Part shown: piece by piece, positions 377 through 20,449 of the stretch
How the letters are laid out: each line of letters begins with the position of its first letter
Position numbering within the stretch: position 1 is the stretch's first letter
Source: a virus
Reading direction: 5' to 3' (one strand)
IMG/VR virus record: IMGVR_UViG_3300043446_001472
Coordinates: 1 to 21,873 of that record
DNA length: 21,873 bases
Translations under genes and position numbers: made by a program
Notes under the pieces: generated by a model
The model's input: the letters and a program-made list of their open reading frames with translations, nothing else
What the model was told of the DNA's origin: nothing
Database searches by the model: none

Positions 377-663
377 TAGTTGATTGTCCACCTACTCTGT
401 CGTGTGTAGTTTGCGTTGTAACGCAACTGTTGGCGTAGCGGGTCACGTGCATCAACAACGTTCCAACTTGTGGCGTTGTTGTAAGAGTTGCTATCAAACC
501 CTTGCATGCTGTTGCTGTTTGCACGGTTATAGATAACAATGGCACCAGCGTCCACGCTTACACGAATACGGTCTGCTGGGTCACGTGCAAAGTTGAGCAA
601 GTTTGCTATGCGGCGTAGCGCACTTTCAGTGCCTAAGTTATCGAAAGCATTTTTGAGCGGCAT
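376..663 (-). CDS. Small tail-module protein, unknown function
   Basis: This is a 95-residue protein starting [12 protein letters not shown] chose the ATG at 663 because it overlaps the upstream stop as TGATG; a GTG at 678 in the same frame would add five residues. The first 35 residues look helical (two short amphipathic helices, with SALRRIANLLNFARD), and the rest is polar and Asn/Tyr/Arg-rich. It lies between the collagen-like fibre and the propeller-like gene with overlaps at both ends, so it is translationally coupled with them and is probably a fibre-associated or tip protein. I do not recognise a family. Confidence 0.75.
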   Translation of the reverse strand: MPLKNAFDNLGTESALRRIANLLNFARDPADRIRVSVDAGAIVIYNRANSNSMQGFDSNSYNNATSWNVVDARDPLRQQLRYNANYTRQSRWTIN

Positions 664-1295
664 CAGTATCCAATCCACATAGTAAAGTCGGCCCCGCTGC
701 TACCTAGGCCAGTTTGCACCCACAAGTAACTTGCAGGTGGGCTGGCTGGTGCAGTGTTGCTTACAAAGATTTGCTGGTTCGTTTTGCGCACATAACGCAC
801 ATCGTTGTAAGCGTCCTCGAGGGCTTGGTCAAAACCTAGTTGCGCACTGGTGCTTGTGCCGCTGTTTGTTATCGGTGCAGTAACGGCAACAACGCCGCTA
901 GGGCCTTGTGGGCCTGTGGCACCTGTAGCACCTGTAGCACCAGTTGCACCAGTTGCACCAGTTGCACCCTGCGGGCCTACATCGCCTGTGTCGCCTTTAG
1001 GGCCTTGCGCACCTGTGGCACCTTGCGGGCCTTGTATGCCTTGCGGCCCCTGTGGGCCAACCGCACCAGTGCCTTCAACCGTAACTGGTGTCGCAGTAAC
1101 GTTCACCGCAACTTGCTGCACGTTTTCAACAACGGCAATGTCTTGCTGCACCGTGGTTTCAGTAACGCTAATCTGATTGACGCTCGCAGTAACGCTCACG
1201 CCGCTAGGCGTGCTTTCACTAACGGTCACACGTTGCACCGTTTCAGCAACACTGATGCCGCCGTTTACCTCAACCGTTACGTTACTCAAGCCCAA
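663..1295 (-). CDS. Collagen-like tail fibre protein
   Basis: The protein has 210 residues. Residues 1-78 are a Val/Thr/Ser-rich, strand-like N-terminal region with repeated V-x-V and V-x-E patterns. Residues 80-134 form a collagen-type Gly-X-Y run of about 18 triplets, including six consecutive Gly-Ala-Thr triplets. A C-terminal head of about 75 residues follows and ends in [10 protein letters not shown] and DFTMWIGY, a motif common at the ends of phage fibres. Collagen-like stalks trimerise, and the distal head usually binds the host or assembles partners. The frame begins with TTG at 1295, preceded by TAGGGCGG, and overlaps the upstream stop by 10 nt. A later start is possible, but the overlap and the ribosome site favour this one. 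Confidence 0.85.
894..1058 (-). repeat. Collagen-like Gly-X-Y coding repeat
   Basis: This tract encodes about 18 Gly-X-Y triplets (residues 80-134 of the fibre). The part between about 917 and 970 is a near-perfect 9-nt tandem repeat (GGTGCAACT and variants) coding Gly-Ala-Thr. Such tracts expand and contract by slippage or recombination, so stalk length may vary between related phages. Confidence 0.85.
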
Positions 1296-1642
1296 ACCGC
1301 CCTACGCACGCTGAACTTACCAGCCATAAATGGTGTGCGTAGGCCGCCGCTGCTAATAAGCCAAAGCGTGTAGTTGTGTGCACCGTAAGGCATTGCGGCG
1401 AGCGCAGCGTGCCCAATGGTTGGCGCAATGGTGCCTAGCGCACCGCCAAGCACAATGCCCGCCGTGGTGTCAATGTTCGTAAGCACGTTGCCAGCATCGT
1501 CCCACACGGTCATTTCAGCCGTGTAGCCAGTGAGGTTTACCGCAACGCCGTCAATCTTGTAGGTGAACGTTTTGGCCCAGTCGGAATGCTGCACGGCCAC
1601 GTAGTCACGCACAATGGGAAACTCGTCAAATGTATCGGCCAT
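1286..1642 (-). CDS. Minor tail protein, BppU/Ig-like fold candidate
   Basis: The 118-residue protein starts [18 protein letters not shown]. Its pattern (hydrophobic strand, [17 protein letters not shown], a Gly/Thr-rich stretch, then [10 protein letters not shown]) resembles the small beta-sandwich domain at the N-terminus of phage receptor-binding and upper-baseplate (BppU-type) proteins. In those proteins the domain anchors fibres to the tail tip. It sits directly upstream of the collagen-like fibre and overlaps it, which fits an adaptor role. The first 95 residues of the 304-residue connector at 10124-11038 show a similar strand pattern. The fold is inferred from sequence pattern, not from a confirmed match. 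Confidence 0.7.
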
Positions 1643-17875: not shown

Positions 17876-18348
17876 TTGTTGTCCAACGTGTTGTTCAGCG
17901 TGCCCAAAATAGACATGCCTGTGATTTCCATGAGGCCCAAACGGATACGTGCGGCTGGGGTAAGCCCAAACGTTTCGGCGTAACGCAGCATGGTTGCTGC
18001 AGCGTCTTTTTGCACTTTGAGTAGCGGGTTTGTGATTGGCCCGCTGGCACCCTTTACCAGCACGCCAAACTGCGCAATGTTTGCGGTGGCTTGTGTGTGC
18101 ACCCACACGGCGTTGCAGTAAGCCTCAAGGCTCGGCAAGTAACTTTCACGCATGTGGTTTGCGCCGCCTAGGTCAGCAACAATGGCGTTCCAAACGCCGT
18201 GCACTTCCTTTGGCAGCGTGGCAGGTGCGGGGTAGGCGGGTTTGGTTTCAAGCACAAGCGGTGCCTGTGCTTTGGCCTTACCAGCGGCGGGCCTGTTACC
18301 TGTGCCACGCTTGGCACGGTTAGGGTCGGCTGGCCTGCCTTTAGCCAT
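17872..18348 (-). CDS. terS: Terminase small subunit, P27 family
   Basis: The protein has 158 residues if translation starts at ATG 18348 (MAKGRPADPNRAKRGTGNRP), which matches the usual basic opening of P27-type small terminases. An ATG at 18360 would add four residues; neither has a strong ribosome site. Domain pattern includes LPKEVHGVWNAIVADLGGA, YLPSLEAYCNAVWVHTQA, the G-G/A-S-G-P-x-x-N-P motif (GASGPITNPLLKVQ) and the C-terminal LTPAARIRLGL. It recognises the packaging site and activates TerL. It overlaps the upstream Mom-like gene by 8 nt and TerL by ATGA. Confidence 0.92.
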   Translation of the reverse strand: MAKGRPADPNRAKRGTGNRPAAGKAKAQAPLVLETKPAYPAPATLPKEVHGVWNAIVADLGGANHMRESYLPSLEAYCNAVWVHTQATANIAQFGVLVKGASGPITNPLLKVQKDAAATMLRYAETFGLTPAARIRLGLMEITGMSILGTLNNTLDNK

Positions 18349-19081
18349 GTGTGGCCCCATCTAAAAAGTGGAGCCCAGTAGTCGGAGTTGCACCGCTTTC
18401 TGCCAACTGGTCGCTGGCCGCATCACTAACAATGCTTACTGGGCGTAATCCACGATACATACGTGCACCCATTTTGTCCAAATCGGTGAACGGCATTTCG
18501 GGAACGGTCAAACGTTCACGCCAAGTGGGGTCAATAAAGTAAACGTAACGCAACTGGTAGCCGTCCAGCGGTTCCCAGTTTTTGAACTCGTCTTTCATCA
18601 TCAGGTGGTAAGCCTGCATGGTGTGCATGACTTCACCTGTTACTGGGTTGCGCCGCAGGCTGTCGCTCTCACGTATGTCGGTCAGCACAAAGCCGCTGGC
18701 ACGGTAAATAGTGCCATCGCCGCATTGCGTGCCGTCAGCAAAACTGACCACCCACTTTATGTGTGGGTAGTGCTTTTTGATGTAACGCATGGCGTAGCCA
18801 ATGGCACGGCTTTCGCTATTGCGTGGCAGCCAATCCGCAAATGCCATGCGGTTCAGTTCAATAAAGTTGTTCCACTCGGTGCCCTCAACCAAGTTCATCA
18901 TGGTTTGCTTGACCATGCTTGGCCCAAACTGCATGGCACCGCCGCACTTGCCGTTTAGGAATACGCCAAAGTGTAGTTGGCTGTTGGGAACGACCTTGCC
19001 GCTATAGTGCAGGTTCTTGATTACTAGGTTTGCGTCAGCGGCCTTGATTGGCTTGAGCACAATGTCTTTTGCACTTGCCAT
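18341..19081 (-). CDS. Mom-like DNA modification protein, paralogue 2 (GNAT fold)
   Basis: The protein has 246 residues; AAGGA lies 9 nt before ATG 19081. It matches the phage Mom-like family strongly: NLHYSGKVVPNSQLHFGVF (His25-Tyr26), GGAMQFGPS, FIELNRMAFADWLPRNSESR (residues 73-92), WVVSFADGTQCGDGTIYRASG (110-130) and the GYQLRYVYFIDPTWR segment. In phage Mu, Mom converts adenine to N6-carbamoylmethyladenine in DNA and so blocks many restriction enzymes. The adjacent paralogue shares the key positions HY, E-x-x-R at 75-78, N-S/T-E-S, C-G and Y-x-A-S-G. The last 33 residues are encoded by sequence that also forms a tRNA-like cloverleaf (18369-18444), and the tail LAESGATPTTGLHF carries its T-loop. 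Substrate and chemistry here are inferred. Confidence 0.88.
   Translation of the reverse strand: MASAKDIVLKPIKAADANLVIKNLHYSGKVVPNSQLHFGVFLNGKCGGAMQFGPSMVKQTMMNLVEGTEWNNFIELNRMAFADWLPRNSESRAIGYAMRYIKKHYPHIKWVVSFADGTQCGDGTIYRASGFVLTDIRESDSLRRNPVTGEVMHTMQAYHLMMKDEFKNWEPLDGYQLRYVYFIDPTWRERLTVPEMPFTDLDKMGARMYRGLRPVSIVSDAASDQLAESGATPTTGLHFLDGATHG
18369..18444 (-). ncRNA. tRNA-like cloverleaf, glycine-type identity (76 nt)
   Basis: On the minus strand the acceptor GCCCAGT (18438-18444) pairs perfectly with ACTGGGC (18373-18379), followed by U73 and CCA (18369-18371). Inside lie AA, a D-type arm (GCAT/ATGC, 8-nt loop, 18420-18435), G, an anticodon-type arm (GCCAG/TTGGC with one G-U, 7-nt loop CGACCAG, 18402-18418), a 4-nt variable region, and a T-type arm (AGCGG with CCG-CT around one bulged A, loop TGCAACT, 18380-18397). 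G1-C72, C2-G71, C3-G70, U73 and C35-C36 in the ACC triplet match known glycine identity elements. U33, G18-G19 and T-loop U55 are missing, so decoding is unlikely. It lies wholly inside the 3' end of the Mom-like gene and may be missed by standard tRNA tools. Confidence 0.6.
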
Positions 19082-19086
19082 GGTGG

Positions 19087-19833
19087 TTATTCCTTTGGTG
19101 GAGAACCGTGGACTTGAACCACGCCAACATCGCTGTTGTCTGCCCCTGCAGGTTCCCCGCTAGGTGCCACCCACTGTTGGTCACGCCTAAACTGTTTGCT
19201 GGCCTTTGGGTAAGGCTGTTGCTGTTTGGCTAACCTACGGCGAATGGACTTGTCTATAGGGTAAACGTAAAAGTAGCGGTGTGCATAGACGACACACCCA
19301 GAACCAAAAAGTTCCTCGCCCACTTGCTGCAACGTTTTGCCCTTGGTTTCAACACGGCCAAAACGTATGGGTGCAATCATGTTTTTGTATTCGCCTGCAT
19401 CGGTCAGGTAAAAGTCGTTGCAAGGCTGTGCGCCAAAGTAGAGCCAGCCGCTTGCCTGATACACAATGCCGCAATCGTCTTTGCAGCCGCCTGCGTGCGT
19501 AACCACCATGCGTAGGCCGTAGTCGGCTTTCAGTTTTTCAATGATGCGGGCAAGGCTGTAACTTTCTGTGTTGTGGCCGTAAAGGTCGCTAATCCACAAA
19601 CGCTGCATTTCAAGGTATTCGTGCTTGGCAATACCGTAGGCAACCTTGGCCACCTTTTTGTCGGTCTGCGTGCTGTAACCAAACACGCAAATGCCCACCA
19701 CCTTGTCGCCGTCCATGATGGCAATGTTCACCTTGGCCCCGCTGGGGTAGGTGCGCATGTAGTGCTGGGTTTCGCACACATGCTTTGCAACCTCACGGCT
19801 GCAGTATTTGTAGGTGAGGTTTCTAAAGTCCAC
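19087..19833 (-). CDS. Mom-like DNA modification protein, paralogue 1 (GNAT fold)
   Basis: The protein has 248 residues and starts at GTG 19833, overlapping the ParB-like gene by 11 nt with AGGG before it. It is a divergent member of the same family as the next gene: CETQHYMRTYPSGAKV (His24-Tyr25), VVGICVFGYS, EYLEMQRLWISD (E75-x-x-R78), HNTESYSLARII (88-91), MVVTHAGGCKDDCGIVYQASG (109-129). Lengths and spacing of these motifs match the other paralogue almost residue for residue, so the two arose by duplication or join of related genes. The C-terminal 24 residues are coded by sequence that also folds as a tRNA-like cloverleaf (19096-19158), and the stop codon follows 6 nt after its CCA. It probably modifies DNA bases, perhaps with a different group from its partner. 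Confidence 0.8.
   Translation of the reverse strand: MDFRNLTYKYCSREVAKHVCETQHYMRTYPSGAKVNIAIMDGDKVVGICVFGYSTQTDKKVAKVAYGIAKHEYLEMQRLWISDLYGHNTESYSLARIIEKLKADYGLRMVVTHAGGCKDDCGIVYQASGWLYFGAQPCNDFYLTDAGEYKNMIAPIRFGRVETKGKTLQQVGEELFGSGCVVYAHRYFYVYPIDKSIRRRLAKQQQPYPKASKQFRRDQQWVAPSGEPAGADNSDVGVVQVHGSPPKE
19096..19158 (-). ncRNA. Minimal tRNA-like cloverleaf, alanine-type identity (63 nt)
   Basis: On the minus strand the element reads, without a base to spare: acceptor GGGGAAC (19152-19158) with GTTCTCC (19100-19106); D-type arm CTGC-AGGG-GCAG (19140-19151); A; anticodon-position arm CAACA-GCGA-TGTTG (19125-19138); G; T arm CGTGG-TTCAAGT-CCACG (19107-19123); then discriminator A and encoded CCA (19096-19099). 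The acceptor has G1-C72, G2-C71, a G3-U70 wobble and A73, the determinants read by alanyl-tRNA synthetase. The anticodon loop is replaced by a GNRA tetraloop, so it cannot decode. T loop and CCA are those of a normal tRNA. It overlaps the last codons of the Mom-like gene, and the ribosome site of the next gene begins right after CCA. Confidence 0.75.
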
Positions 19834-20449
19834 TTAGGTAGCCCTTGCAAATCTCATAAATGGCGTTGGCGTTCACGTTGGCGTTCACATCGCTTTCAAT
19901 CTTTGTGTTCAGTTTGATTGCGGCAATGGCCTGCAGCACAACGTCTGCCTGCGTGCTGTGCAGCGTGAAAGTGATTTGCTGGAAGTCTGACTTGGGGCCG
20001 TCACTAAGTGCAGGCGGTTCAACTTCCTCAACATCAAACACTCCCATTTCAGTAGGCGTGAACCCTAGCGTGGCCATGCTGTAGCCCACAGCGTCCAACT
20101 CGAGCAACGTGCTGGCCAACTGCACATCGTTCCAGTTAGCCAGTTCAGCCGTGCGGTTATCGGCGAGCGCAAATGCACGTGCCTTGTCTGCGTCCCAATC
20201 GCTTGGCACCTCGGCAACCGCAATGTCTGACCAGCCCAAAGCGGTGGCAGCCTCAAGCGTGCCGTTGCCTGCAATGACTACAAGCGAGCCATCGTTTGCA
20301 CGTGCAACCACAATGGGTTTGCGCTGGCCAAACTGTTGCAGGCTTTGCTTTATCGCCTCAATGTTCCGCTCGTCATGCTGCCTAGCATTTTGCGGGTCAG
20401 GCGTAAGGCTTTTGATTTTTACGGTGGTTACTTTCAGCACATCGCTCAC
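19823..20449 (-). CDS. ParB-like nuclease-domain protein
   Basis: The protein has 208 residues and starts at GTG 20449, with AAGGTAAG 6 nt before it. Residues 8-110 match the ParB/sulfiredoxin-like domain: KIKSLTPDPQNARQHDERNI, AIKQSLQQFGQRKPIVV, the VVIAGNGTLEAATALG motif (57-72, equal to the GNGR-type motif of ParB nucleases, here GNGT), and AFALADNRTAELANWN (92-107). The C-terminal 70 residues have strands (QQITFTLHSTQADVVLQAI) of unknown fold. In phages such proteins commonly sit beside terminase or DNA-modification genes. Overlap with the first Mom-like gene suggests a joint role in DNA modification or in marking DNA for packaging. The Arg-to-Thr change in the motif could affect catalysis. 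Confidence 0.88.
   Translation of the reverse strand: MSDVLKVTTVKIKSLTPDPQNARQHDERNIEAIKQSLQQFGQRKPIVVARANDGSLVVIAGNGTLEAATALGWSDIAVAEVPSDWDADKARAFALADNRTAELANWNDVQLASTLLELDAVGYSMATLGFTPTEMGVFDVEEVEPPALSDGPKSDFQQITFTLHSTQADVVLQAIAAIKLNTKIESDVNANVNANAIYEICKGYLSGL

Follow-up and report, generated by a model that had tools for sequence, protein, structure and literature searches.

The tmRNA is charged with alanine through its G3·U70 pair, AlaRS accepts minihelix substrates in which the acceptor and T-arm domain is enough for alanine charging, and armless mitochondrial tRNAs illustrate that the loss of an arm is tolerated. The published determinants of bacterial alanine identity are A73, G2-C71, G3·U70, G4-C69 and G20, and those of glycine identity are U73, G1-C72, C2-G71, G3-C70, C35 and C36 (PMC9976931). 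It is established that aminoacyl-tRNA serves some GNAT-fold enzymes as the source of an amino acid (PMC12945691), and in Staphylococcus, FemX/A/B build cell-wall bridges with a non-proteinogenic tRNA-Gly (PMC4052509). The title of a preprint by Silva et al. (2023, doi 10.1101/2023.03.24.534169; cited in PMC12707154) announces a viral enzyme that modifies DNA with charged tRNA.

The present study concerns two tRNA-like elements at Mom-family genes in IMG/VR virus record IMGVR_UViG_3300043446_001472. The window, that is, the whole stretch of DNA analysed (positions 1 to 21,873 of the record, 21,873 nt), also encodes terminase, portal and capsid genes, as indicated by profile searches. Close to where the block of structural genes ends, there is a gene for a protein with collagen-like GPQGPQG repeats (663–1295, minus strand), probably a tail fibre.

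The Ala-type element of the window and its flanking genes

The Ala-type element comprises 63 nt on the minus strand (19158..19096). Read in the RNA from the 5' end, it consists of the 5' acceptor strand GGGGAAC (19152–19158), the D arm CUGC-AGGG-GCAG (19140–19151), a single A, the anticodon-position arm CAACA-GCGA-UGUUG (19125–19138), a single G, the T arm CGUGG-UUCAAGU-CCACG (19107–19123), the 3' acceptor strand GUUCUCC (19100–19106) and A73 followed by a CCA encoded in the DNA (19096–19099). The stems of 7, 4, 5 and 5 bp are 100% paired, the single G·U being pair 3·70, and the T loop is of the UUCRANY type; the fully paired cloverleaf with an ACCA end, as described in the original prediction, was confirmed on this strand. 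The single-base linkers described with it are present between the D and anticodon-position arms and between the latter and the T arm, but the acceptor–D and T–acceptor junctions are direct. A GCGA tetraloop occupies the place where an elongator tRNA has a 7-nt anticodon loop with U33 and a triplet. The D loop of the Ala-type elements has only 4–6 nt, too short for an assignment of position 20, the site of the G20 determinant.

Minimum-energy folding predicts the cloverleaf (−25.8 kcal/mol, 76% of the ensemble), and the plus strand of 19096–19158 folds differently, with no cloverleaf. The folding energy is unremarkable (z = −1.96; 9 of 200 shuffles fold equally well), and the folding energies and z-scores of the elements are too weak to decide by themselves. 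Sixty shuffles of the whole window, searched on both strands, gave 30 places with a 7-bp acceptor, a 5-bp T stem and CCA, and none when a TTCnA T loop was also demanded; this strict pattern occurs at exactly one place in the real window, the element itself. The earlier statement that chance formation is unlikely holds, the comparative data given below being decisive over folding energy, and the window cloverleaf is real. ARAGORN did not report the Ala-type element and Rfam gave no match for it; the Rfam gathering score was reached by 0 of 7 loci tested, both element types included. ARAGORN found no tmRNA in the window either, and the 63-nt element has no tag reading frame of the kind present in tmRNA of ~350 nt.

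The element overlaps the 3'-terminal codons of a gene with a GTG start (19087..19833, minus strand) that encodes a Mom-family DNA modification protein of 248 aa, designated MomA (Pfam PF25680, E = 2.4e-37; phrog_1384). It ends 14 nt before the ATG (19081) of the gene of a second Mom-family DNA modification protein, MomB (18341..19081, minus strand; 246 aa; PF25680, E = 1.6e-52; phrog_1384). The proposed location between two genes is therefore accurate on the MomB side and not on the MomA side; the Mom-family identity of both genes had been missed. The full-length PF25680 scores are 129 bits for MomA and 178.6 bits for MomB, with a cut-off of 27.1. A ParB_N-domain protein is encoded directly upstream of MomA (19823..20449, minus strand; profile matches). 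ParB-like genes immediately or almost immediately preceding mom were also noticed in loci L161, L166, L173, L174 and L175, and their products are perhaps DNA-targeting partners.

The predicted structure of MomA (mean pLDDT 81) contains a GNAT-like fold up to approximately residue 212, followed by a disordered tail (residues 213–248, pLDDT 30–46); by coordinate arithmetic, the Ala-type element covers the codons of approximately residues 226–246, within this tail. The nearest solved structure is that of phage Mu Mom (8bv8, titled as the inactive mutant S124A), and S91 of both MomA and MomB corresponds to the Mu catalytic serine S124. MomA proteins have T112 with H113 or Y113; the corresponding residues of other Moms are S112 and, in most cases, F113. 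Base modification of DNA is the activity predicted for both proteins from their membership in the Mom family.

The 3' codons of MomB contain a Gly-type tRNA-like element (18369..18444, minus strand), which ARAGORN calls tRNA-Gly and which is also indicated by its fold and by model R1 (70.8 bits, E = 1.8e-13, the identical sequence being part of the R1 training set). It has the acceptor GCCCAGU...ACUGGGC, U73CCA and the anticodon-position triplet ACC (C35, C36), with no U33.

Conservation of the elements among Mom loci

All 13 other intact MomA loci (43–69% protein identity) have an element at the MomA 3' end, and together with the window they provided 9 distinct Ala-type sequences for comparison. 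G1-C72, G2-C71, G3·U70, G4-C69 and A73 are invariant in 9 of 9. Acceptor pairs 5–7 and the T stem vary, yet pair in 71 of 72 cells, compared with 57 in the best of 20,000 shuffles. MAFFT misplaces the 5' strand of the window element against the armless relatives; solely for pair counting, the 11 extra anticodon-arm nucleotides of the window were omitted. Every Watson–Crick form occurs at pairs 5–7 across the set, and 9 of 16 pairs are compensated in a six-sequence set, a number equalled by 0 of 500 shuffles. The acceptors are GGGGAAC/GUUCUCC in the window, GGGGGCU/AGCCUCC in L035 and its group and also in L272, which has a changed D stem, GGGGCCU/AGGCUCC in L189, GGGGGUA/UACCUCC in L281, GGGGCUG/CGGCUCC in L283, GGGGUCG/CGACUCC in L286 and GGGGGAG/CUCCUCC in L285. 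The last four were found by model R2 built without them, i.e., R2 detects the element out of sample in four MomA relatives of 43–57% identity.

The anticodon arm is absent in L035, where the element measures 52 nt, and in L037, L041, L272 and L189, and the remaining Ala-type elements have a variable middle hairpin with a loop that is not anticodon-like. Across the viral and phage loci searched, R2 matched solely at MomA, and each intact MomA has such a match; in L284, where MomA is truncated, just the 3' part of the element is present, and a single deletion accounts for both, which makes this locus weak evidence. The matches listed included no cultured phage with MomA. Since G3·U70 and A73 stay invariant next to covarying pairs, with the anticodon arm missing or substituted, the comparison supports the view, already taken in the original prediction, of a putative alanine-type acceptor unable to decode.

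The position of the stop codon suggests on which level the constraint acts. The whole element is coding in the window and in L035; in L189 its first nucleotide is the final base of the stop codon, and in L281 the stop codon falls within it. A D-stem pair that is G-C in L035 is A-U in L272, and direct reading shows that each of the two substitutions alters the amino acid (Ala to Thr, Ala to Val); the refuting case named with the original prediction, stems broken while the protein is conserved, was looked for, and the opposite was seen. As judged from these sequences, the constraint acts on the RNA and not on the protein.

Every MomA locus examined also has MomB, and both element types are present wherever the sequence is complete. 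The order is MomA-Ala-MomB-Gly in the window and L272, and MomB-MomA-Ala-Gly in L283, L285 and L286. The varying order indicates that the elements behave as separate modules; in the three latter loci both elements are 3' of MomA, so the assignment of an element to an enzyme is not fixed by position.

Nearly all MomB relatives have the Gly-type element in the last codons or just 3' of the stop, and more than 100 other Mom genes carry such an element at the same 3' place, none of which had been noticed originally. The consensus comprises a 7-bp acceptor starting with GC and ending with GC, the sequence U73CCA after it, and a T arm that is conserved and frequently reads GGCGG-N7-CCGACC plus one additional A. 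Scanning with a DNA motif yielded at least 120 contigs; among the matches listed, a same-strand Mom ORF immediately precedes the element in 113 of 120, and five of the seven exceptions are no more than 300 nt away from the end of a contig. As a control for motif bias, Mom genes were found by protein alone and fixed regions were scored relative to the stop codon, which was chosen as the reference because elements can lie inside the HMM domain model. The Mom 3' regions exceeded the threshold in 29 of 35 cases in the MomA/B set and in 59 of 66 cases among relatives of the Mom of Arthrobacter phage Shade; the control regions did so in 0 of 206 cases upstream and 3 of 188 downstream (two of these three loci recur in the Mom list), counts that depend on the scoring scheme of this analysis.

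In 71 aligned Gly-type elements, both-sided changes occur in 19 of 22 pairs, and no shuffle reached the observed covariation score. G3-C70 is present in 81 and U73 in 85 of 88 elements, a set in which G1 and C2 were demanded by the filter. C35 and C36 are kept in 78 of 82 elements, U33 is found in only 31 of 82, and the T loop of many is unlike UUCRANY. The predicted GlyRS determinants are kept and features of decoding and elongation are lost, although ARAGORN calls some of these elements tRNA-Gly.

Isolated phages with Gly-type elements are Psychrobacter phage vB_PmaS_Y8A and Arthrobacter phages Shade and Timinator. In vB_PmaS_Y8A (L161), tandem elements (2162–2229 and 2234–2302) directly follow a mom-like gene annotated as a hypothetical protein; the paper describing this phage reports the absence of tRNA genes. 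In Microbacterium phages Phonegingi (L173) and Appa (L174), a Mom-like acetyltransferase gene is immediately followed by an annotated tRNA-Gly (1454–1528, minus strand), which is encoded on the other strand and whose anticodon differs between the two phages (tcc, ccc). Two further Gly-type elements have A73 instead of U73 (L009, 2763–2836; L010, 4642–4715), and another (L113, 5417–5492, minus strand; 67.9 bits) is located just before terminase genes, with no Mom on that stretch of the contig.

No element was found after mom in Mu, JD024, PAN70, pAEv1818, EfaS_159, PMBT69, TCUEAP3, P12002L, PX29, SWEP2, phiEf11, VSiP, Jing313, CRP-902 and PK3.6; many Mom genes, that of Mu included, have none, so the element is not needed by every Mom. 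An R2 search of 150 host-family genomes gave weaker matches, and those inspected were six tRNA-Ala genes and some short Ala-type elements. The latter, in Microbacteriaceae chromosomes, have 54–56 nt, G3·U70, A73 and CCA and no anticodon arm (L290, 1501–1554, minus strand; L295, 2067–2121; L296, a second identical copy in the genome of L295; L298, L299 and G017). A DNA pattern for them matched two genomes only. No Mom gene was found in the genomes that contain them, and no Rfam match was obtained where checked; possibly, such chromosomal elements were the source of the phage element.

Possible function of the elements

Both element families keep almost exactly the published alanine and glycine determinants and drop features needed for decoding only. 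Together with the precedents of charged tRNA and GNAT-fold enzymes, this suggests that the Ala-type and Gly-type elements probably serve, outside decoding, as dedicated amino-acid carriers that host AlaRS and GlyRS charge and that feed the adjacent Mom enzymes. The predicted RNA structures and identity elements are conserved, the link to mom is tight and location outside the reading frame is possible; from these observations we infer the carrier role and an alanine-derived base. The Ala-type element would be cut from the mom transcript, with the CCA end kept or added, and host AlaRS would charge it with alanine via G3·U70, G2-C71, G4-C69 and A73, ignoring the anticodon; MomA, a Mom-family protein with a predicted GNAT fold, would then use the alanyl-RNA as donor for base modification of phage DNA. 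MomB would likewise use glycine from the Gly-type element at its own 3' end, C35, C36 and U73 presumably being retained because GlyRS needs them. The product of MomB would be adenine with glycinamide, i.e., the Mu modification (~+57 Da), and that of MomA its alanine analogue (~+71 Da). Chemical reasoning suggests that the glycyl group may first be placed on N6 of adenine and then rearrange to the Mu glycinamide, with the alanine analogue formed by MomA in the same manner. The broader proposal, that phages encode orthogonal, partly anticodon-free carrier RNAs, one per enzyme (glycine for MomB; alanine for MomA, leading to an undescribed alanine-derived DNA base), is one on which our confidence is evenly divided.

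Of the alternatives, the best surviving, though unlikely, is a processing or regulatory signal, where RNase P and RNase Z would cut the MomA–MomB transcript, or translation would be tuned, with no involvement of the amino acid. tRNA-like folds are RNase P substrates, the element sits at a gene junction of a tightly packed operon and the carrier model needs cleavage too. However, cutting does not require G3·U70 or A73, yet both are invariant, which argues against the mere RNase P signal suggested earlier; the retention of C35, C36 and U73 in MomB-type elements would stay unexplained, and in L283, L285 and L286 both elements come after both genes. Slightly less probable still is an alanine carrier that does not serve MomA, i.e., an AlaRS-charged RNA for another enzyme or one competing with host tRNA-Ala. 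The Microbacteriaceae elements mentioned above indicate that such RNAs can serve another use where Mom is lacking, but the confinement of viral and phage R2 hits to MomA speaks for a link to this enzyme, and no other candidate enzyme consistently adjoins the elements.

A decoy for host tRNA-cleaving toxins or nucleases, also suggested in the original prediction, is very improbable. Some phages carry tRNAs resistant to anticodon nucleases, but the Ala-type elements lack the anticodon loop in which most of these nucleases cleave, and the fixed position at mom would be unexplained. An equally small chance is given to ordinary phage tRNA genes supplementing translation, or their remnants: the ARAGORN calls and the annotated tRNA-Gly genes of Appa and Phonegingi are in line with this, but codon reading is impossible for the Ala-type, the scarcity of U33 and the deviating T loops do not fit the Gly-type, and compensated stems would not persist in remnants. 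A chance fold, an integration site or a protein-coding constraint can practically be dismissed, since, despite the unremarkable folding energy and the location of the window element within a reading frame, the covariation, the stop codons of L189 and L281, and the amino acid changes of L272 in a tail predicted to be disordered contradict it.

If the carrier reading is true, phages evolve their own stripped-down tRNAs that feed a DNA-modifying enzyme, and amino-acid charging is separated from translation. The two families would then constitute a natural experiment, where the Gly-type, served by the anticodon-reading GlyRS, keeps C35 and C36 and the Ala-type, served by AlaRS, which does not read the anticodon, has lost it. 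The carrier reading predicts a specific new DNA base, the alanine counterpart of the Mu modification, traceable by mass spectrometry. The elements offer a short RNA handle for finding Mom systems, and the Ala-type ones would add putative natural minimal AlaRS substrates for study.

Comparison with known systems

Phage Mu Mom belongs to the same enzyme family (PF25680) and provides the nearest solved structure to MomA; the difference is that Mu has no element after mom, whereas here the phage encodes a putative carrier RNA and one of the Mom paralogues is accompanied by the Ala-type. The staphylococcal tRNA-Gly variants are similar in serving non-ribosomal aminoacyl transfer by GNAT-fold enzymes, with translation features weakened and charging features kept, but they are full host tRNAs with anticodons and are used for the cell wall; the elements described here are phage-encoded, are linked to a DNA-modification gene and, in the case of the Ala-type, lack an anticodon. 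The tmRNA shares alanine identity by G3·U70 and A73 and the lack of an anticodon, but the present elements have 52–77 nt and no tag reading frame and are not called tmRNA by ARAGORN. Finally, minihelices are laboratory constructs and armless mitochondrial tRNAs are translation tRNAs, whereas the elements at the Mom genes look like natural non-translational carriers.
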